Assembly: GCA_927407015.1 (NCBI GenBank)
Contig: CAKMJT010000057.1
Coordinates: 1-64,000 of the forward strand
Length of the DNA stretch: 64,000 bases
DNA from: an uncultured Proteiniphilum sp.
Lineage (GTDB): Bacteria > Bacteroidota > Bacteroidia > Bacteroidales > Dysgonomonadaceae
Reading direction: 5' to 3'
Part shown: positions 4,260 to 32,811 of the stretch, one piece after another
How the letters are laid out: every line of letters starts with the position of its first letter
Position numbering within the stretch: position 1 is the stretch's first letter
Translations under genes and position numbers: made by a program
Notes under the pieces: model-generated
The model's input: the letters and a program-made list of their open reading frames with translations, nothing else
Database searches by the model: none
Told to the model about the DNA's origin: nothing

Positions 4260-4343
4260 CCGTTTCATTTGCAGCAATAACGGATATCAGATGTTTGAAT
4301 GAAACGGTTATGAGAATGATTTACAATTTATGGCGGTTTTCAT
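4260..4343. repeat. Alternating inverted copies of a CCGTTTCATT motif upstream of ftcD
   Basis: CCGTTTCATT (4260-4269) and its exact complement AATGAAACGG (4298-4307) form a 10-bp inverted repeat with a 28-nt spacer. A third, weaker copy, GGTTTTCATTCAA, lies near 4332-4344 in the original orientation. Centres are about 36-38 nt apart. They could be regulator sites or RNA arms; the sequence alone does not decide. Confidence 0.45.
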
Positions 4344-4368
4344 TCAATCAAACAGAACATAATGAATT

Positions 4369-5265
4369 ATGAATAAAATTATGGAATGTGTTCCCAACTT
4401 CAGTGTGGGACGTGACATCAACAAAGTAGAGCAGATTGCCGACACGTTTCGTGGAAAAGAAGGTGTGAAGCTACTGGATTACAGCAGCGATGCCGATCAT
4501 AACCGTTCGGTGATCACTGCCGCGGGAGAACCCGAAGCATTGAAGCGTGCAGTGATGGAAGCCATCGGCAAGGCGGTGGAGCTGATTGATCTTACACAGC
4601 ATCAGGGACAGCATCCCCGCATGGGTGCTGTGGATGTGGTACCCTTTATCCCGATCAAAAATGTGACGATGGACGAGGTGGTGGCCCTGTCGAAAGAGGT
4701 GGCACAAAAGGTGGCTGAGAAGTACCACCTCCCGGTGTTCCTCTACGAGAAGTCGGCTACATCCCCTCACCGTGAGAACCTGGCAGCTGTCCGCAAAGGA
4801 GAGTTCGAAGGTCTGACGGAGAAAATGAGACAACCGGAGTGGTGGCCCGATTTTGGTCCGGCGGAACGCCATCCCACTGCCGGTGCCGTGGCTATTGGTG
4901 CACGGATGCCGCTGGTGGCCTACAACGTGAACCTGGGGACCGACAACCTGGAGATCGCCATTGCCATCGCCAAAAAAGTACGTTTCGTGGGTGGTGGTCT
5001 GCGTTATTGTAAAGCGATGGGTATCTCTCTGGAAGAGAGGGGCATCACACAGGTATCCATGAACCTGACAGATTTTACCAGAACAGCCATATACCGTGCA
5101 CATGAGCTGGTGCGCATGGAGGCAAAGCGATACGGTGTACCTGTCGTGGGTGCCGAAGTGATTGGTCTGGTGCCGATGGAGGCACTGGCAGAAACGGCAG
5201 CCTATTATCTGGGACTGGAAAACTTCTCTATGCAGCAGGTGCTTGAAACGAAACTGATGGAATAG
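4369..5265 (+). CDS. ftcD: Glutamate formimidoyltransferase
   Basis: Transfers the formimino group of formiminoglutamate to tetrahydrofolate, releasing glutamate; this is the folate-dependent end of histidine degradation. The 298 residues correspond only to the transferase half of the mammalian bifunctional FTCD. The start region NKIMECVPNFSVGRD is highly typical, as are the LLDYSSDADHNRSV and HQGQHPRMGAVDVVPF stretches. The cyclodeaminase half is a separate gene at 7213. Two in-frame ATGs exist (4369 and 4381); the first is preferred because it keeps the conserved NKIMECVPNFS beginning. No hutG or hutF is seen, so formimino transfer to folate is the only route visible here. Confidence 0.95.
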   Translation: MNKIMECVPNFSVGRDINKVEQIADTFRGKEGVKLLDYSSDADHNRSVITAAGEPEALKRAVMEAIGKAVELIDLTQHQGQHPRMGAVDVVPFIPIKNVTMDEVVALSKEVAQKVAEKYHLPVFLYEKSATSPHRENLAAVRKGEFEGLTEKMRQPEWWPDFGPAERHPTAGAVAIGARMPLVAYNVNLGTDNLEIAIAIAKKVRFVGGGLRYCKAMGISLEERGITQVSMNLTDFTRTAIYRAHELVRMEAKRYGVPVVGAEVIGLVPMEALAETAAYYLGLENFSMQQVLETKLME

Positions 5266-19273: not shown

Positions 19274-19294
19274 ATGATTAAAACTATTTATTTT

Positions 19295-19302
19295 CAAAGG
19301 TA
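19295..19302 (-). promoter_or_regulatory. -7 promoter box of dxs-trkA
   Basis: TACCTTTG on the minus strand matches TAnnTTTG, 22 nt before the dxs ATG at 19273. It excludes the longer upstream starts for dxs. No -33 at standard spacing is evident. Confidence 0.5.
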
Positions 19303-19390
19303 TCATATGGAACTCGCAATTATCATGTGTCCGGGTGAGAACGGTTCTCATGCTCGTTTCATACAATTATATTATTCTCTAGGATCGTCT

Positions 19391-26678: not shown

Positions 26679-27248
26679 ATGATACAGATACAGCAAACAT
26701 TACTGTCAGATGATATTTTTGAGGAACGATTTATCTGTGACCTCTGTAAGTGTAAGGGCCAGTGTTGTGTTGATGGTGAATCGGGTGCACCACTGACGCC
26801 GGAAGAGTATGAACAGATCAAAGAGATCCTGCCCTTCATCCGGAACGATCTGTCACCCGGTGCAAACGCGCTGATTGAAGCACAGGGTATAGCCTATACC
26901 GATAACGACGGAGAGCTGGTTACTTCCATCATCAACGGTGAAGAGTGCGTCTTCACCTGGTTCGATGCCGACGGTGTGTGTAAATGTGTGATTGATACCG
27001 CTTTCAGGGAAGGACGAATCAACGTGCAGAAGCCGGTATCCTGCCATCTTTACCCCATCAGGCTGACAGAATATGCCGATTTTACAGCGGTCAACTATCA
27101 TCGCTGGTCGGTATGTGAACCTGCCGTGAAACTGGGCAGAAAAGAAGGTCTGCCGCTCTATCGTTTTCTGAGGGAGCCTTTGATTCGGAAATTCGGGAAA
27201 GTGTGGTATGACGAAGTGTGTAAAGCCGCTGCATTACTGAAGAAATAG
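26679..27248 (+). CDS. DUF3109 family protein
   Basis: A 189-residue protein of a family of unknown function common in Bacteroidetes. It is rich in conserved cysteines: CDLCKCKGQCC near the N-terminus, VCKCVIDTAF in the middle, SCHLYPIR and WSVCEPA later. This spacing recalls YkgJ-type Fe-S or zinc cluster proteins, so a metal cluster is likely (inference). ATG 26679 is chosen because it yields the usual short N-terminus before the first Cys cluster; an open frame extends to 26625, overlapping the protease gene. It is probably co-transcribed with the CPBP gene. Confidence 0.85.
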   Translation: MIQIQQTLLSDDIFEERFICDLCKCKGQCCVDGESGAPLTPEEYEQIKEILPFIRNDLSPGANALIEAQGIAYTDNDGELVTSIINGEECVFTWFDADGVCKCVIDTAFREGRINVQKPVSCHLYPIRLTEYADFTAVNYHRWSVCEPAVKLGRKEGLPLYRFLREPLIRKFGKVWYDEVCKAAALLKK

Positions 27249-27321
27249 TGAAGACAGGAAAAAGGCAGCCCCCGGGTTGTTCTGATTCTATGGTGACGAT
27301 TTCATTTTTTAAGCGAATAAC

Positions 27322-27353
27322 TTTCGCTATCTGAAATCTTTGTTTTATTTTTG
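27322..27353 (+). promoter_or_regulatory. tetR promoter
   Basis: TTTC (27322-27325), 20 nt spacer, TATTTTTG (27346-27353): consensus -7 and a one-mismatch -33. Confidence 0.6.
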
Positions 27354-27376
27354 CACACATATATATATAATGTGCA
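27352..27376. promoter_or_regulatory. Candidate TetR operator
   Basis: TGCACA (27352-27357) and TGTGCA (27371-27376) form a perfect inverted repeat around a 13-nt AT core containing five TA steps. It overlaps the end of the -7 box and the expected transcription start, and ends 7 nt before the tetR start codon. That is the classical place for autorepression. Confidence 0.6.
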
Positions 27377-27382
27377 GATAAA

Positions 27383-27973
27383 GTGGACCCAGCCATCTCG
27401 AAAACAAAGAAGAATTTAATTGACGTAGCCCGGCAGCTTTTTGCAAAAAAAGGGGTTGAGAATACCACCATGAACGATATTGCTGAAGCGTCTCAACGGG
27501 GCAGACGTACGTTGTATACTTACTTCAGCAGTAAGAGCGATATTTATAAAGCAGTGATCGAGACGGAGCTGAACGTGCTCTATAGTAAGCTGGAGGAGGT
27601 GATCAAACGTGATATACCCGCTGACGAGAAATTGATCATGCTGGCATTTACCCGGCTGGGTGCCATCAAAGAGGTCGTTACCCGCAACGGAACATTACGG
27701 GCTGATTTCTTCAGGGATATCTGGCAGGTGGAGAATGTACGTAAAGAGTTCGACAAGAAAGAGATTCATTATCTGGAAACCATTATCCTGGATGGATGCG
27801 ACAAGGGGATTTTTACACTGAAAGATGTAAGGCAAACAGCTGTAATATTGCACTACGCGTTTAAAGGTCTGGAGGTGCCCACTATCCGTGGTACCATGAA
27901 GTTCGACTACAACAAAACGGAAGATAGGGATATTATAGCCAATTTATTATTCAAAGGGTTATATACCAAATAG
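27383..27973 (+). CDS. TetR/AcrR-family transcriptional regulator
   Basis: A 196-residue regulator. The N-terminal helix-turn-helix reads KNLIDVARQLFAKKGVENTT followed by MNDIAEASQRGRRTLYTYF, typical TetR_N with the conserved Y-x-Y-F recognition end. The C-terminal ligand domain is helical and not diagnostic. The best start is GTG at 27383; the nearby ATG at 27370 runs into a stop after three codons. A palindrome over its start site suggests autoregulation. It lies directly upstream of the fabG-type gene, separated by one leader repeat, so lipid or fatty-acid control is a reasonable guess, no more. Confidence 0.88.
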   Translation: MDPAISKTKKNLIDVARQLFAKKGVENTTMNDIAEASQRGRRTLYTYFSSKSDIYKAVIETELNVLYSKLEEVIKRDIPADEKLIMLAFTRLGAIKEVVTRNGTLRADFFRDIWQVENVRKEFDKKEIHYLETIILDGCDKGIFTLKDVRQTAVILHYAFKGLEVPTIRGTMKFDYNKTEDRDIIANLLFKGLYTK

Positions 27974-27993
27974 ATATTTTTTAAAGTAATCGT

Positions 27994-28077
27994 ATGAAAC
28001 GAGCAGGACAAACGTACACTGATGGTCCTGAATATCACGTGTTCCATACACCATAATGAGAAAAATAAAATAGTTGT
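27994..28077 (+). repeat. Leader repeat, single copy before fabG
   Basis: An 84-nt unit from ATGAAACGAGCA to the base before the fabG ATG. It contains GTTCCATACACCATAATG at 28041-28058, identical over 18 nt to the copy at 30430-30447. An A-rich stretch and the next ATG follow 19 nt later. In this copy the initial ATG opens a 20-codon frame starting MKRAG and ending at the TAA inside the conserved block. Family of four in the window. Confidence 0.8.
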
Positions 28078-28824
28078 ATGAAGTTATTAGAAGGAAAAAC
28101 AGCACTTGTCACCGGCGCAGCCCGTGGAATAGGTAAAGCCATTGCGTTGAAATTCGCTTCGGAAGGAGCCAACATCGCTTTCACAGATCTGACGATAGAT
28201 GCAACAGGCGAAGCAACCGAGCACGAGATTGCGGCATTGGGCGTGCAATGTAAGGGGTATGCCTCCAACGCTGCCAATTTTGAGGAGACACACAAAGTTA
28301 TCGATCAGATCATGCAGGATTTTGGCAGGATTGATATCCTGATCAACAACGCCGGTATTACCAAAGACGGTTTGATGATGAGAATGAGCGAGCAGCAGTG
28401 GGATGCGGTAATCAACGTGAACCTGAAATCGGCTTTCAATTTTATTCATGCGGTCACACCCGTGATGATGCGTCAGAAATCGGGGAGCATCGTGAACATG
28501 AGCTCCGTTGTGGGAGTATCGGGAAATGCAGGTCAGGCAAACTATTCCGCATCTAAAGCAGGGATGATCGGCCTGGCCAAATCGGTGGCAAAAGAGCTGG
28601 GTTCGAGAGGTATCCGGGCGAATGCCATTGCTCCGGGATTCATCATTACCGAAATGACCGGTGCACTTTCGGAAGAAGTACGCAACGAATGGGCAAAACA
28701 AATCCCATTGCGGCGTGGGGGCACACCGGAGGATGTTGCGAATGTAGCACTTTTTCTTGCTTCCGACCTCTCTTCGTATGTGAGCGGACAGGTGATCAAT
28801 GTCTGCGGCGGGATGAATACCTGA
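28078..28824 (+). CDS. fabG: 3-oxoacyl-ACP reductase (SDR family)
   Basis: Short-chain dehydrogenase of 248 residues, most like FabG, which reduces 3-oxoacyl-ACP with NADPH in fatty-acid elongation. The cofactor motif TGAARGIGKAIAL is at residues 12-24, and NNAGI follows strand four (residue 90). The catalytic tetrad is Asn in NVNLKSAFN, Ser in MSSVVG, and YSASK with Tyr and Lys. The C-terminal GFIITEMT and SDLSSYVSGQVINVCGGM are family-typical. It follows tetR and one leader repeat. Confidence 0.92.
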   Translation: MKLLEGKTALVTGAARGIGKAIALKFASEGANIAFTDLTIDATGEATEHEIAALGVQCKGYASNAANFEETHKVIDQIMQDFGRIDILINNAGITKDGLMMRMSEQQWDAVINVNLKSAFNFIHAVTPVMMRQKSGSIVNMSSVVGVSGNAGQANYSASKAGMIGLAKSVAKELGSRGIRANAIAPGFIITEMTGALSEEVRNEWAKQIPLRRGGTPEDVANVALFLASDLSSYVSGQVINVCGGMNT

Positions 28825-28899
28825 TCGGAATAAAGACAATAAAAGTGTTCCGTTGCATCGGATCTGATTTACCGGACGCGAAAAAAGAATAATTTTTTT

Positions 28900-28927
28900 G
28901 GAGGCACAGGGTTATCTTTGTGCCTCC
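28900..28927. promoter_or_regulatory. -7 box inside a perfect palindrome, upstream of the RluA-type gene
   Basis: TATCTTTG (28913-28920) is a consensus -7 box for the gene starting at 28960. It lies within a stem-forming sequence, GGAGGCACA (28900-28908) and TGTGCCTCC (28919-28927), a perfect 9-bp inverted repeat with a 10-nt loop. There is no T-run on the proper side for a terminator of fabG. An operator or a 5' RNA stem at the transcript start is possible. Confidence 0.5.
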
Positions 28928-28959
28928 GGTATTTTGAAGACATCCTATCGATTGAAAGA

Positions 28960-29643
28960 ATGACAGTATTATACGAGGATAACCATATCATTGTCGTCAA
29001 CAAGGCGCCCTCCGAAATCGTGCAGGGAGACAAAACAGGCGATAAGCCGTTGTCGGAGATGGTAAAGGAGTATCTGAAAGAGAAGTACAACAAACCGGGC
29101 AACGTTTTTTGCGGGGTGACACACCGTCTCGACCGGCCTACAAGCGGGGTGGTGGTGTTTGCCCGGACCAGCAAGGCTCTTTCCCGTCTCAACGACATGT
29201 TTCGTGACGGGGAGGTGGATAAAACCTACTGGGCGGTGGTGAAAAACAAGCCTCCAAAAATGGAGGATACGCTGATCCATTATCTGATCAAGAATGAGCA
29301 GAACAATAAGTCAACCGCTCATGACCGTGAAAAACCGCACACCAAGAAAGCAGTGTTGCACTACAGGCTGATCCACGCCTCACAAAACTATTTCCTGCTG
29401 GAGATCGCCCTGGAGACGGGAAGGCATCATCAGATCCGTTGTCAACTTGCGAAGATAGGATGCCCTATCAAGGGTGACCTGAAATACGGAGCAGAGCGCT
29501 CCAACCCTGACGGCAGCATCAGCCTGCATGCACGTTCCATCACTTTTATACATCCTGTGTCGGGAGAGCAGATAAAGGTGATTGCCCCCGTACCGGATGA
29601 GAAGCTCTGGACAGCATTTGAAGAGGCAGTGAGCAGGGATTGA
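28960..29643 (+). CDS. RluA-family pseudouridine synthase
   Basis: Isomerises uridine to pseudouridine in rRNA or tRNA. The 227-residue protein has the family motif HRLDRPTSGVVVFARTSKAL with catalytic Asp (about residue 52), an early VNKAP loop, and ETGRHHQIRCQLAKIGCPIKGDLKYG. It lacks an N-terminal S4 domain, so it is the short RluA/C-type form; target site unknown. ATG 28960 (MTVLYEDNHIIVVNK) is chosen over the open frame to 28918 because the promoter box overlaps the latter. It is convergent with arfB, with 11 nt between stops. Confidence 0.92.
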   Translation: MTVLYEDNHIIVVNKAPSEIVQGDKTGDKPLSEMVKEYLKEKYNKPGNVFCGVTHRLDRPTSGVVVFARTSKALSRLNDMFRDGEVDKTYWAVVKNKPPKMEDTLIHYLIKNEQNNKSTAHDREKPHTKKAVLHYRLIHASQNYFLLEIALETGRHHQIRCQLAKIGCPIKGDLKYGAERSNPDGSISLHARSITFIHPVSGEQIKVIAPVPDEKLWTAFEEAVSRD

Positions 29644-29654
29644 AGCCGGCTCGT

Positions 29655-30065
29655 CTAACCTTCGAAGCGTCCCCCTCGGTTTTTTTTCTTCTCGCTGATC
29701 TGTTTTTTCCTTTCCAGTCTTTTTTTGACAGATGCAGCAGTAGGTCTGGTGGATTTTCTTTTTTTGACCGGTTGCAGTGCTCTTTCGATGAGGTTTTCAA
29801 ACTTACGGATCACCGCCTTTCTGTTCATCAGCTGACTTCGCTCCGTTTCGCTTGTCAACTGCAAAATCCCCTCCTTGCTTATTCTGTTTCTCAATTTCTC
29901 TGCAAGCACCTTCTTTTGTGCGTCGGAGAGTATCTCTGAGTTGGAAATATCGAACGATAGCAAGACCTTTGTCTCGACCTTATTTACTTTCTGTCCCCCG
30001 CTGCCACTGCTGCGTGCAGTGGCAAAGGAACATTCCCCGATCAGTTTTTCAAAGTCAGGTGCCAT
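29655..30065 (-). CDS. arfB: Alternative ribosome-rescue factor ArfB (YaeJ)
   Basis: Peptidyl-tRNA hydrolase that frees stalled non-stop ribosomes. The 136 residues comprise a single RF-1-like catalytic domain with the GGQ motif in SSGSGGQKVNKVETKV (about residues 19-34) and a basic, Lys/Arg-rich C-terminal tail (KKRLERKKQISEKKK). That tail enters the empty mRNA channel in the E. coli protein. It lacks codon-recognition domains, separating it from PrfA/B. The frame is open to 30203, but ATG 30065 gives the family-length product. Confidence 0.93.
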   Translation of the reverse strand: MAPDFEKLIGECSFATARSSGSGGQKVNKVETKVLLSFDISNSEILSDAQKKVLAEKLRNRISKEGILQLTSETERSQLMNRKAVIRKFENLIERALQPVKKRKSTRPTAASVKKRLERKKQISEKKKNRGGRFEG

Positions 30066-30232
30066 ATAGCCTTTCTGTGAGAGATGGATAGGCAAAGATA
30101 CGCTTTTTGTGAATTCAGGCGACACATAGAACCGTATATATGAAAAAGGACGGTAGATTAGAATAACTGGTGGGACAGCGCGTTTGAAAAAATCCCGATT
30201 CAACGGGAGAGATGGACATTTAATCTATTTCA

Positions 30233-30264
30233 TTTTCCAATTTTGCATAAAAACTGTACATTTG
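30233..30264 (+). promoter_or_regulatory. Promoter for the leader-repeat transcript and nucleotidyltransferase
   Basis: TTTC (30233-30236), 20-nt spacer, TACATTTG (30257-30264). Consensus -7 and one-mismatch -33. Predicted start about 30271, giving a leader of roughly 290 nt that carries three tandem repeats. Apart from these features I see nothing in the 494-nt gap after arfB. Confidence 0.6.
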
Positions 30265-30296
30265 CTGAAGAAACAAAAATCATTTCCTATAAATCG

Positions 30297-30380
30297 ATGA
30301 AACGAGTCAAAACATCACTCCACTCAGGAACTGTTTTGATCGCAGGTTCCGGACACTTCGATCCATAACAGCATGATAGG
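30297..30380 (+). repeat. Leader repeat, divergent tandem copy 1
   Basis: 84 nt from ATGAAACGAGTC to the next unit. It has GTTCC at the expected offset (30346-30350) and a degenerate remainder (CCATAACAGCATGATAGG). Its frame is MKRVKTSLHSGTVL... ending at TAA after 28 codons. Confidence 0.6.
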
Positions 30381-30468
30381 ATGAAACGAGCATTGAAACA
30401 GTTACACGCAAAAACATGATTTTATGCGAGTTCCATACACCATAATGTGAAAAGATAAAAATAATCGG
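30381..30468 (+). repeat. Leader repeat, tandem copy 2
   Basis: 88 nt starting ATGAAACGAGCA, with GTTCCATACACCATAATG (30430-30447) identical to the copy before fabG, then GTGAAAAGATAAAAAT and the next ATG. Its initial frame stops after 12 codons (MKRALKQLHAKT). Confidence 0.8.
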
Positions 30469-30559
30469 ATGAAACGGGCATGATCAACGTTCACACCCGG
30501 GAGCATGAACCAATACGGGTTCCATACGACTCTAATGTAAAAGAATAAAATATTATCAA
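30469..30559 (+). repeat. Leader repeat, tandem copy 3
   Basis: 91 nt starting ATGAAACGGGCA, with GTTCCATACGACTCTAATG (30519-30537) and an A-rich stretch before the ATG of the nucleotidyltransferase. Its initial frame stops after four codons (MKRA). A small stem GAACC/GGTTC precedes the conserved block. Confidence 0.75.
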
Positions 30560-31462
30560 ATGAAACCTACTTTATTTGTACTGGCAGCAGGAATGGGAAG
30601 CCGTTACGGCGGCCTGAAACAATTGGATGGTCTGGGCCCGGGCGGCGAGACTATTATGGATTACTCTATTTACGACGCGGTAAACGCCGGCTTCGGCAAA
30701 CTAGTCTTCGTGATCCGGAAATCGTTTGAAGAAGATTTCAGAGAAAAGATCGTGAGAAAGTACGAAAAAAAGATTCCTGTTGAACTGGTTTTTCAGGAAC
30801 TGGATAAACTGCCTGATGGTTTCACACCACATCCCGAAAGGGTGAAACCGTGGGGTACCAACCACGCGGTGATGATGGGGAAAGAGGTGATTCAGGAACC
30901 GTTCGCGGTGATCAACGCCGACGATTTCTACGGAAGAGAGAGCTTCAGCGTACTGGCCGATTACTTAAAAACCCTTGAAAATAGCGAAAACAGCTATTGC
31001 ATGGTCGGCTACCGCGTGGGAAACACATTGTCCGAAAGTGGTACCGTGGCACGCGGCGTCTGTGAGGCAGACGAAAGCGGTAACCTTACCGGCGTTGTGG
31101 AACGTACGCAGGTGATGCATATGGACGGCAAGGTGAGCTACAAGGATGAAGACGACCGGTGGGTGGCTATCGACGACAACACACCCGTATCAATGAACAT
31201 GTGGGGTTTCACACCCGATTATTTCCGCTATTCTGATGATTACTTCGTGAACTTCCTGAAAGAGAACGCGGCAAACCTCAGGGCTGAGTTTTTTATCCCC
31301 TTGCTGGTCAATCATCTTATTGTGAGCGGACTTGTCACCGTGAAAGTGCTGGATACCCCCTCCAAATGGTTTGGCGTAACCTATGCCGAAGATCGTCCCG
31401 CGGTTGTCGCAAAACTGAAGAATCTGGCAGATAGCGGGACCTATCCTTCTCCGCTGTGGTAA
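30560..31462 (+). CDS. Sugar-phosphate nucleotidyltransferase family protein
   Basis: A 300-residue GT-A-fold NTP transferase. The signature LAAGMGSRYGGLKQLDGLGP (residues 8-27) is the nucleotide-binding loop. NADDFYGRESF near residue 115 holds the metal-binding Asp pair, and WGTNHAVMMGKE matches the base-contact region. It most resembles glucose-1-phosphate-type transferases but has a distinct C-terminal half without a left-handed helix, so the sugar and nucleotide are unknown. It is preceded by three tandem leader repeats and followed 35 nt later by a CorC-type gene. Confidence 0.85.
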   Translation: MKPTLFVLAAGMGSRYGGLKQLDGLGPGGETIMDYSIYDAVNAGFGKLVFVIRKSFEEDFREKIVRKYEKKIPVELVFQELDKLPDGFTPHPERVKPWGTNHAVMMGKEVIQEPFAVINADDFYGRESFSVLADYLKTLENSENSYCMVGYRVGNTLSESGTVARGVCEADESGNLTGVVERTQVMHMDGKVSYKDEDDRWVAIDDNTPVSMNMWGFTPDYFRYSDDYFVNFLKENAANLRAEFFIPLLVNHLIVSGLVTVKVLDTPSKWFGVTYAEDRPAVVAKLKNLADSGTYPSPLW

Positions 31463-31497
31463 CACACTGAGAAGATGTTTCACCCAACAGTCAGACT

Positions 31498-32811
31498 ATG
31501 TGGACAGATATCATCATTATTCTCTTACTGATCCTGCTGAACGGTTTTTTTGCCCTGTCGGAGATTGCTATTGTTTCGGCAAGGAAAAACAAACTGGAAA
31601 CGGAGCGCAAAAAAGGAATAAAAGGTGCCAAACGCGCATTGAAACTGCGTTCCGATCCCGATAATTTTCTTTCATCCGTACAGGTAGGGATTACCCTCAT
31701 AGGCATCATCAACGGTGCCTACGGGGGACAGGCATTTGCCGGTTATCTGGTGCCTTTCTTCGGACAATTTGCCGCCACTGCTCCCTTTGCCGATGCCATC
31801 TCCATGGTGATCGTGGTTTTTCTGATTACCTATCTCTCCATCGTGATAGGAGAGCTGGTGCCAAAGACCATCGCGCTGAACAGCCCGGAGAAGATGGCCA
31901 TTACTGTGGCACCCACTATTTACGGGGTAAGCATCCTCTTCTATCCGTTCGTAAGACTGCTGGCTATTTCTACGAGCCTGGTCAACAGACTCATCGGGTT
32001 AAAACCCAGGGACGAAGTAGTCTCTGAGATGGAGTTGCGTGCCATGTTGAAAACAGCATCACACGAAGGAATAATAGATGCCGAAGAGAATATCATCCAT
32101 GAACAGGTTTTCTATTTTTCCGATAAGCGCGCCATCCATCTGATGACGCACCGTACCGATGTGGAGTGGGTGGATATTGATAAAGGCAGGGAAGAGGTCA
32201 TTCAGGATCTGCTTCACACAAAACACAGCAAGATACTTGCCTGCAGGAAAAGAATAGATGAGTTCGTGGGAATCATCTCCATGAGGGATTTTCTGCTGCG
32301 GCTGAATAATGGTGCTCCCTTTATGATAGAAGAGCTCATCATGGAGCCTATTATTGTACCCAATACGCTCCGTGCAAAGAAAGTGCTGGAGAATTTCAAG
32401 AACAACCATAAGTTCGTGGCTGTGGTGGTTGATGAGTATGGAAGTCTCGATGGCATCATCACCGTGCACGATATTTTTGAGAATCTGGTGGGTGCCATAC
32501 CGGAAGAGACCGATGATGCGTCGGCTGAACCCCTCATCTTCATCCGTGACGACCACTCAGCACTGGTAAGCGGTGAGGCACCCATTGAAATACTGACGCA
32601 GCTGGACGATGATTTTATCGTCGATTTCGACAGAATAGACTATTCCACTGTCGCCGGTTTTGTATTCGAGTGCATCAATAAAATACCCTATATAGGGGAT
32701 AAATTTGAATACGATAACCTCCTGTTTGAAATTGTGGACATTGACGGAAACAAAATTGATAAAGTTCTCGTAACAAAAAAGATAAAAGGAACGGATGAGA
32801 TCATCATTTGA
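31498..32811 (+). CDS. Hemolysin C/CorC (CNNM-type) transporter family protein
   Basis: A 437-residue membrane protein. Order: DUF21/CNNM transmembrane domain (1-190, beginning MWTDIIIILLLILLNGFFAL then SEIAIVSARKNKLE), two CBS domains (about 205-330, with MRDFLLRL and VVVDEYGSLDGIITVHDIFE), and a C-terminal CorC_HlyC domain (about 345-430, with DDDFIVDFDRIDYSTVAGFV). The family handles Mg2+ or Co2+ efflux; haemolysin activity is not generally established. It probably shares a transcript with the nucleotidyltransferase. Confidence 0.92.
   Translation: MWTDIIIILLLILLNGFFALSEIAIVSARKNKLETERKKGIKGAKRALKLRSDPDNFLSSVQVGITLIGIINGAYGGQAFAGYLVPFFGQFAATAPFADAISMVIVVFLITYLSIVIGELVPKTIALNSPEKMAITVAPTIYGVSILFYPFVRLLAISTSLVNRLIGLKPRDEVVSEMELRAMLKTASHEGIIDAEENIIHEQVFYFSDKRAIHLMTHRTDVEWVDIDKGREEVIQDLLHTKHSKILACRKRIDEFVGIISMRDFLLRLNNGAPFMIEELIMEPIIVPNTLRAKKVLENFKNNHKFVAVVVDEYGSLDGIITVHDIFENLVGAIPEETDDASAEPLIFIRDDHSALVSGEAPIEILTQLDDDFIVDFDRIDYSTVAGFVFECINKIPYIGDKFEYDNLLFEIVDIDGNKIDKVLVTKKIKGTDEIII

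Follow-up and report, generated by a model that had tools for sequence, protein, structure and literature searches.

The 64,000-nucleotide (nt) stretch of contig CAKMJT010000057.1 analysed here (hereafter the window; assembly GCA_927407015.1, an uncultured Proteiniphilum sp.) contains several copies of a repeat whose units measure about 85-91 nt. The repeat is probably a family of non-coding, non-autonomous mobile elements of the Bacteroidota, about 90 nt long, that insert in one orientation at the sequence ATGAA(A), mostly at the start codons of genes. Mobile insertion at ATGAA is the firmest component of this reading, and we consider it very likely. Of the ideas put forward in a preliminary description of the window, a small mobile element inserting before start codons is the one strongly supported, by filled and empty orthologous sites, by variable copy number and by seemingly unrelated targets. 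That description listed four units, and their positions are correct, each beginning with ATGAAACG. Searches relied on two covariance models, R1 (sequence only, built from 17 copies of the own genome) and R3 (a later structure model). The units concerned, and the genes they precede, are as follows.

27994-28077, plus strand: unit at the fabG start codon (R3, 54.5 bits, E 3.1e-8), with a 20-codon frame beginning ATGAAACGAGCA.
28037-28049, plus strand: internal arm of the fabG unit, ACGTGTTCCATAC (sequence reading and R3).
28078-28824, plus strand: target gene, a fabG-like short-chain dehydrogenase of 248 amino acids (open reading frame, ORF; relatives in 37 of 39 genus genomes).
30297-30380, plus strand: degenerate unit, first of a three-unit array (R1, 16.2 bits at 30289-30359).
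30381-30468, plus strand: second array unit, near consensus (R3, 65.3 bits, E 2.4e-10).
30469-30559, plus strand: third array unit, adjoining the nucleotidyltransferase start codon (R1, 54.2 bits; no R3 match at E<=1).
30560-31462, plus strand: target gene, a putative nucleotidyltransferase of 300 amino acids (ORF; family name as in the preliminary description).
19274-19362, minus strand: full unit additional to the four first noted, adjoining a dxs-like gene at its start codon, 19273 (R3, 72.4 bits, E 1e-11).

The dxs-like target is an ORF of 657 amino acids. All target gene names used here (fabG, L31, sucC, groES, dxs and others) are presumptive assignments from protein-sequence resemblance alone, for dxs from the N-terminal sequence. 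An 18-nt block reported as shared by two units, GTTCCATACACCATAATG, is indeed identical at 28041-28058 and 30430-30447 (exact matches; with up to three mismatches allowed, chance would be expected to give 0.08 matches in the entire window), and the third block, GTTCCATACGACTCTAATG, lies at 30519-30537 with the gene ATG 22 nt beyond its end. The unit at 30297-30380 has a block without CAT. Short frames of 20, 12 and 4 codons were counted correctly, but the frame starting at 30297 has 23 codons and not the 28 claimed for it. In the fabG unit two consensus arm pairs are broken; its ACGTGTTCCATAC arm has two possible partners, the left ATGAAAC end and the right end that precedes the fabG ATG.

Mobility is strongly supported by orthologous loci with and without the element. 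Thirty fabG loci were read; three are filled (those of the own genome, G012 and G006) and 27 lack an R1 match. The empty site in genome G026 runs from ACCAAATAGATATTTAATAAAATCAT directly into ATGAAACTA, while the own genome has ACCAAATAGATATTTTTTAAAGTAATCGT, the unit, and then ATGAAGTTA. When the two are aligned, the left flank in the own genome, through its ATG, is the flank of the empty site through its ATG, and after the unit the gene resumes at ATGAA. Seven further targets of the own genome were looked up in up to 12 relatives each, with flanks compared by eye for L31 and the nucleotidyltransferase only; the gene start was not recognised in two of the 83 look-ups (L435 and L439). R1 matched at 6 of these 83 relative loci and left 77 without a match, the matches including endonuclease IV in G008 and G026 and L31, dxs and (weakly, 13.2 bits) sucC in G026. 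A truncated unit in the opposite orientation lies upstream of sucC at L415 (G004), the sole such case among the 6 matches. The L31 site is empty in G005, where CTATCTTTGCCAACCGAAAATTGAGACGAAAAAAAATAAAAGAT is followed at once by ATGAAG, and the own genome has two units behind an identical promoter-proximal flank. No R1 match was found upstream of the window's nucleotidyltransferase gene in any of the 12 relatives examined. At one start codon, one gene in two species (L046 and L370) carries different subfamilies of the element, which suggests independent insertions. Copies are also held in common by the close pair G001/G004. In the G006 fabG copy both arms have changed with most arm pairs still formable (judged by eye), a hint of selection after insertion. 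Orthologous retention was rejected as proof of function, the only instances seen being the G012/G006 fabG copy and the copies shared by G001 and G004.

The preliminary description would have been refuted by a lack of further copies in the genome and its relatives together with random divergence of the shared block, and this is not what was found. In the own genome (3.18 Mb in 63 contigs) the two-part pattern ATGAAACGNGC..GTTCCATAC has 11 exact matches against 0 for the backwards control, and R1 returns 77 matches at E<=1, or 61 at E<=0.001. R1 matches occur in 35 of 39 genomes of the genus, copy numbers across the 39 running from 0 to 90 (the four genomes without a match include incomplete assemblies), and in 63 of 101 genomes at the family level, where counts per genome are lower bounds, few candidates having been scored in each. 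Wider samples, with the own genome counted, gave 7 of 395 genomes for the phylum (sequence model) and 69 of 395 genomes, or 39 of 197 genera, for the class (R3, ten candidates scored per genome). A scan of named genomes with the strict two-part pattern yielded at least 117 stretches. Among the matches listed are Marinilabilia, Anaerophaga, Thermophagus, Draconibacterium, Parabacteroides and Proteiniphilum; we take all of their 80 titles except bacterium BMS3Abin03 to be Bacteroidota taxa. Viral contigs held no convincing copy (a 15-base pattern found 56 stretches with 2 weak partial model matches at E<=0.1, and the two-part pattern found 0).

Units sit in a single orientation at ATGAA(A) with direct ATGAA repeats on either side, so that the interrupted gene retains its start codon and frame. 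The pooled scans, in which loci were chosen for carrying the element and viral-contig loci were left out, gave 189 distinct units with matched arms and ends. Eleven are directly followed by another unit; among the 178 non-tandem units, 127 lie directly against an ORF of 60 codons or more and 2 reach a contig edge. By a crude expectation, 204 of 751 noncoding-or-start ATGAA sites are gene starts (crude ORF call, element-derived sites included). Start codons are over-represented among insertions, though non-start insertions exist, and the excess may reflect targeting or a higher survival of insertions at starts. Immediately beyond the right ATGAA, 175 of 190 units have A, vs 72 of 134 ATGAA gene starts without a unit. 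A sixth base other than A presumably derives from the gene, which would point to exchange within ATGAA.

The units also share a structure. The left arm, ATG-A-AAC-GA-GC, pairs with an internal arm, GC-GA-GTT-C-CAT, and a second pairing joins the bases 3' of the internal CAT to those directly before the downstream ATG. Compensatory changes, for which the preliminary description had proposed a covariance check, were found in both pairings. For the right-hand pairing they are seen in 119 units from the named-genome scan (125 pattern matches in all 117 stretches listed, minus 6 without a right ATGAA). Among these matches listed, the first pair after the internal GTTCCAT is A-T in 43 units, C-G in 40, G-C in 16, T-A in 8 and T-G in 4 (8 unpaired); the second is C-G in 54, T-A in 44, A-T in 12 and T-G in 1 (again 8 unpaired). 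At least three contiguous right-end pairs form in 93 of the 119, vs 18 of 119 with a left-flank control, and 112 of the 119 have a single possible right end. RNAalifold, applied to 85 units among the matches listed, recovers both the right-end helix and the arm helix, whose inner end covaries (A-T 49 with C-G 19; T-A 48 with A-T 14). Run on the 17 own-genome copies it gives zero consensus pairs, probably because the arms hold mismatches and copies within one genome are alike.

Covariation over the structure was assessed in an alignment of 35 rows, A4, made up of 24 of 25 units chosen to be less than 80% alike (L295 excluded), the second unit of L228, and 5 units each from other families and from the own genome. 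In it 94.7% of cells are paired and 37 are double-changed, neither value being reached in 500 shuffles; slid registers pair at most 37.4% of cells. A scan that left the letters free and required pairing gave 224 arm-matched units, 190 of them with matched ends, and 0 in reversed sequence. Across these 190 units the pair beside the arm mismatch is C-G 185 times and T-A 5 times. The tandem GA is retained in 176; a few units (L483, L492, L121) have Watson-Crick or near pairs there instead. At the fourth base, the combination with the opposite position is an A.C mismatch in 176 of 190 and pairable (A-T or G-T) in 8, so the mismatch is usually, not invariably, retained. Double changes seen in the arms include C-G to T-A, G-C to C-G, and tandem GA to Watson-Crick pairs.

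One feature of the right-hand pairing bears on how such an element might move. Its covarying bases are not part of the inserted arm, but joining the two ATGAA ends would make them an exact continuation of it. The covariation would be compatible with a folded single strand recombined through a circle. Joining of the two ATGAA ends would produce the mobile form, a circle (or single strand), in which CNN-ATGAAACGAGC and GCGAGTTCCAT-NNG would form one continuous imperfect hairpin; a recombinase or nuclease specific for folded single strands would recognise this hairpin, and the ATGAA of the element would recombine with that of the target. One folded site on such a molecule would account at once for the covarying pairs, for ATGAA repeats that are direct and for units that all point one way, and we rate such a folded recombination site just short of an even chance. 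The arrays lend the joined-end model limited support, 2 of 6 adjacent unit pairs having clearly unit-specific matched ends and 4 of 6 being ambiguous. At locus L227, which has no nearby right end, about 700 nt were read for a longer cassette and nothing convincing appeared. More tentatively still, the family may represent a new Bacteroidota recombination system of tiny circular cassettes, each a single folded site with its own guide, GTTCCATNNG, for both ends and for the start-codon target ATGAAA. Such cassettes would spread via start codons, leave host proteins intact and take over the translation initiation region.

Several observations weigh against a mobile, start-codon-directed hairpin. 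The fabG copy common to G012 and G006 is an old insertion. Only a shorter ORF stands behind 49 of the 178 non-tandem units, and survival bias could yield the start-codon enrichment, for which the expectation was itself based on crude ORF calls. Half of the pairs in A4 (6 of 12) are invariant; its weaker measures were matched by shuffles (double-change pairs in 11 of 500, further pair types in 19 of 500); and 25 of its 35 rows came from a search with fixed arm letters, its own-genome rows having first been found by similar patterns. Because pairing was required in the pooled scans, their pair types document the combinations that exist and give no rate of broken pairs. The right-hand pairing could equally be a hairpin that covers the start codon in the messenger RNA. 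Neither a circle nor a transposition event was observed, and no mover enzyme was found among Y1_Tnp and TIGR02249 matches, reverse transcriptases and serine and other recombinases not having been searched.

That hairpin is central to the strongest competing account, in which the units are cis-regulatory RNA leaders; we judge it unlikely, though it is the rival that survives best. The internal CAU would pair with either the upstream AUG or the gene AUG, and translation of the short frame would control access to the gene start. On the mobile-element reading that we favour, an insertion would leave the gene's original initiation region to start a short peptide, often M-K-R-A-stop, while translation of the gene itself would begin from an A-rich leader that the element brings, with C at -3. 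The serial upstream ORFs of the preliminary description are sound as anatomy (4 codons is the most frequent length, seen in 72 of 178 units), with control of translation a putative role; on the favoured reading such short frames would be a by-product of insertion. C at -3 is found in 179 of 189 units vs 75 of 428 other starts, and in 108 of the 119 units among the matches listed. In Flavobacterium, according to PMC6847099, initiation is favoured by A at -3 and additional AUGs are scarce close to starts, preferences that would make lower expression of element-led genes plausible. The leader account draws on this contrast at -3 and on the frequent 4-codon frame, as well as on the sharing of one CAT by both pairings, which makes them mutually exclusive in part, and on a covarying right-hand pairing that covers the gene AUG. 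Four copies outside the window are slightly more stable than their shuffles when folded (z -1.35 to -2.20), but the four window copies are not (z 0.22 to -0.82). The downstream genes, moreover, look functionally unrelated (names by resemblance), congeners differ between 0 and 90 copies, most orthologs examined have no R1 match (27 of 30 at fabG, 77 of 83 at the other loci in relatives), and the 49 units already mentioned precede short ORFs only. An RNA switch between two AUGs is possible.

The proposal that the units are gene-less integron cassettes with a diverged attC site is improbable. Sites of this kind carry boxes RYYYAAC ... GTTRRRY in an imperfect hairpin with mismatches, and the units resemble them in their imperfect arms with a usually conserved mismatch, their AAC/GTT triplets, a short shared core and a half-site that integration would move to the opposite end. 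The consensus boxes nevertheless differ, the arms ATGAAAC ... GTTCCAT misfitting RYYYAAC/GTTRRRY on either strand (by eye). Tyrosine recombinases that fall short of the integron cut-off were found in 39 of 39 genomes and likewise in 14 of 14 control genomes. With TIGR02249 above cut-off in 0 of 39, integron integrase was rejected as the mover. No cargo gene or array platform was seen; the copies are dispersed, mostly at start codons, and form no integrase-adjacent arrays. The motif OTH-22-1, an attC-like conserved structure thought to act as single-stranded DNA and showing no overlap with known attC sites, is described in part of PMC8632094. Our element resembles it in being conserved and structured, and differs in lacking the RYYYAAC attC box that OTH-22-1 has, a comparison of descriptions, not of sequences.

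Slightly less probable again are repetitive extragenic palindromic (REP)-like or IS200/IS605-derived palindromes moved on single strands by a Y1 transposase (TnpA, or RAYT, the REP-associated tyrosine transposase). The likeness is considerable: both are short, non-coding, high-copy, hairpin-forming and presumably mobilised in trans, and our element is non-autonomous, enters a short target in one orientation and carries internal sequence that is complementary to both of its ends. Y1 matches are indeed present in three high-copy genomes (two with internal stops in the own genome, one partial in G014 and two pieces in G023). Y1_Tnp (PF01797) occurs, however, in only 6 of 39 genus genomes, and no match was found in the remaining 33, several of them copy-rich; G001, G004, G008, G019, G022, G031 and G038, with 51-90 copies each, have none. 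No R1 match lies within 10 Y1 loci. The Y1 transposase was accordingly rejected as the mover, being missing from these seven high-copy genomes and having no R1 match at its loci. A REP tag, as defined in PMC3733652, is GTAG or CGTC at the foot of a short palindrome; anywhere in the 35 aligned units, GTAG/CTAC occurs 2 times and CGTC/GACG 4 times. Unlike REP/RAYT palindromes, the element stands at ATGAA start codons, leaves a start codon behind and has internal sequence that pairs with both ends. Finally, an immobile gene leader that was merely duplicated locally in tandem fits the three units in tandem at 30297-30559, the 11 of 189 pooled units followed by another and 4 of 6 adjacent pairs (which fit either history), but this account has almost no probability left, being refuted by the dispersed copies before unrelated-looking genes in many genomes. 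In 2 of 6 adjacent pairs, moreover, the matched ends clearly differ. Dispersal and these two pairs also show that the earlier idea of an RNA element multiplied by tandem duplication does not describe the main process.

Rickettsia palindromic elements are small, inserted inside the reading frames of genes, which stay readable; ours is likewise a small palindromic insertion that keeps the gene readable, except that it sits at the start codon. Miniature inverted-repeat transposable elements (MITEs) such as that of Porphyromonas gingivalis, as characterised in part of PMC4596501, are similarly small non-autonomous Bacteroidota repeats. Unlike a classical MITE, with its terminal inverted repeats and target-site duplication, the element has direct ATGAA ends, an internal inverted arm, one orientation and a start-codon target. 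REP/IS200 palindromes, attC sites and MITEs are the nearest kinds, and each fails a tested defining feature. Rfam 15 gave one irrelevant match outside the units (positions 27000-31500 of the window, E<=1) and one match at E<=0.5 over 10 loci, with nothing relevant, and no description of such an element was found in freely licensed PubMed Central papers. We take it to be a kind of small non-autonomous mobile element, apparently undescribed so far; whether a new class is needed depends on the enzyme.

If the reading is true, a large class of elements uses a landing site that is both precise and safe, and would account for leader repeats and short upstream ORFs across many Bacteroidota genomes. 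The element may have altered translation initiation of housekeeping genes, among them those for ribosomal protein L31, sucC, dxs and groES (presumptive names, as above). It raises a testable question: what enzyme recognises a folded element in which sequence complementary to both its ends and its target is present? An insertion system specific for start codons would also be a useful genetic tool.

One weaker candidate was met in the window.

4299-4378, plus strand: weak degenerate candidate unit, beginning ATGAAACGG (R3, 21.5 bits, E 0.079).

Variants of the unit were also observed. Four own-genome units (L019, L046, L060 and L063) have in common a loop insert of about 29 nt, ATTACGAAGTAATCGACGTAGTCAATAAT or a close variant, which marks either a derived subfamily or another small element nested within the unit. 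A further small repeat appears in own-genome units L061, L069 and L076, where an insert like GACTCCGTCGAT..TTCGATT lies within the arm, between GTT and CCAT. A sister element with the same ends and a different interior hairpin (ATGATTAAAATAATCATTAA..) is found at L089 (G031), L093 (G023) and L096 (G007); at L089 its ends are ATGAAACC ... GGTTCCAT, and it directly precedes a groES-like gene. Own-genome units L064 and L081 are broken by another short repeat, of the TTCGTTAAGCTAAAT.. type, with a short direct repeat (by eye) at the L081 junctions.

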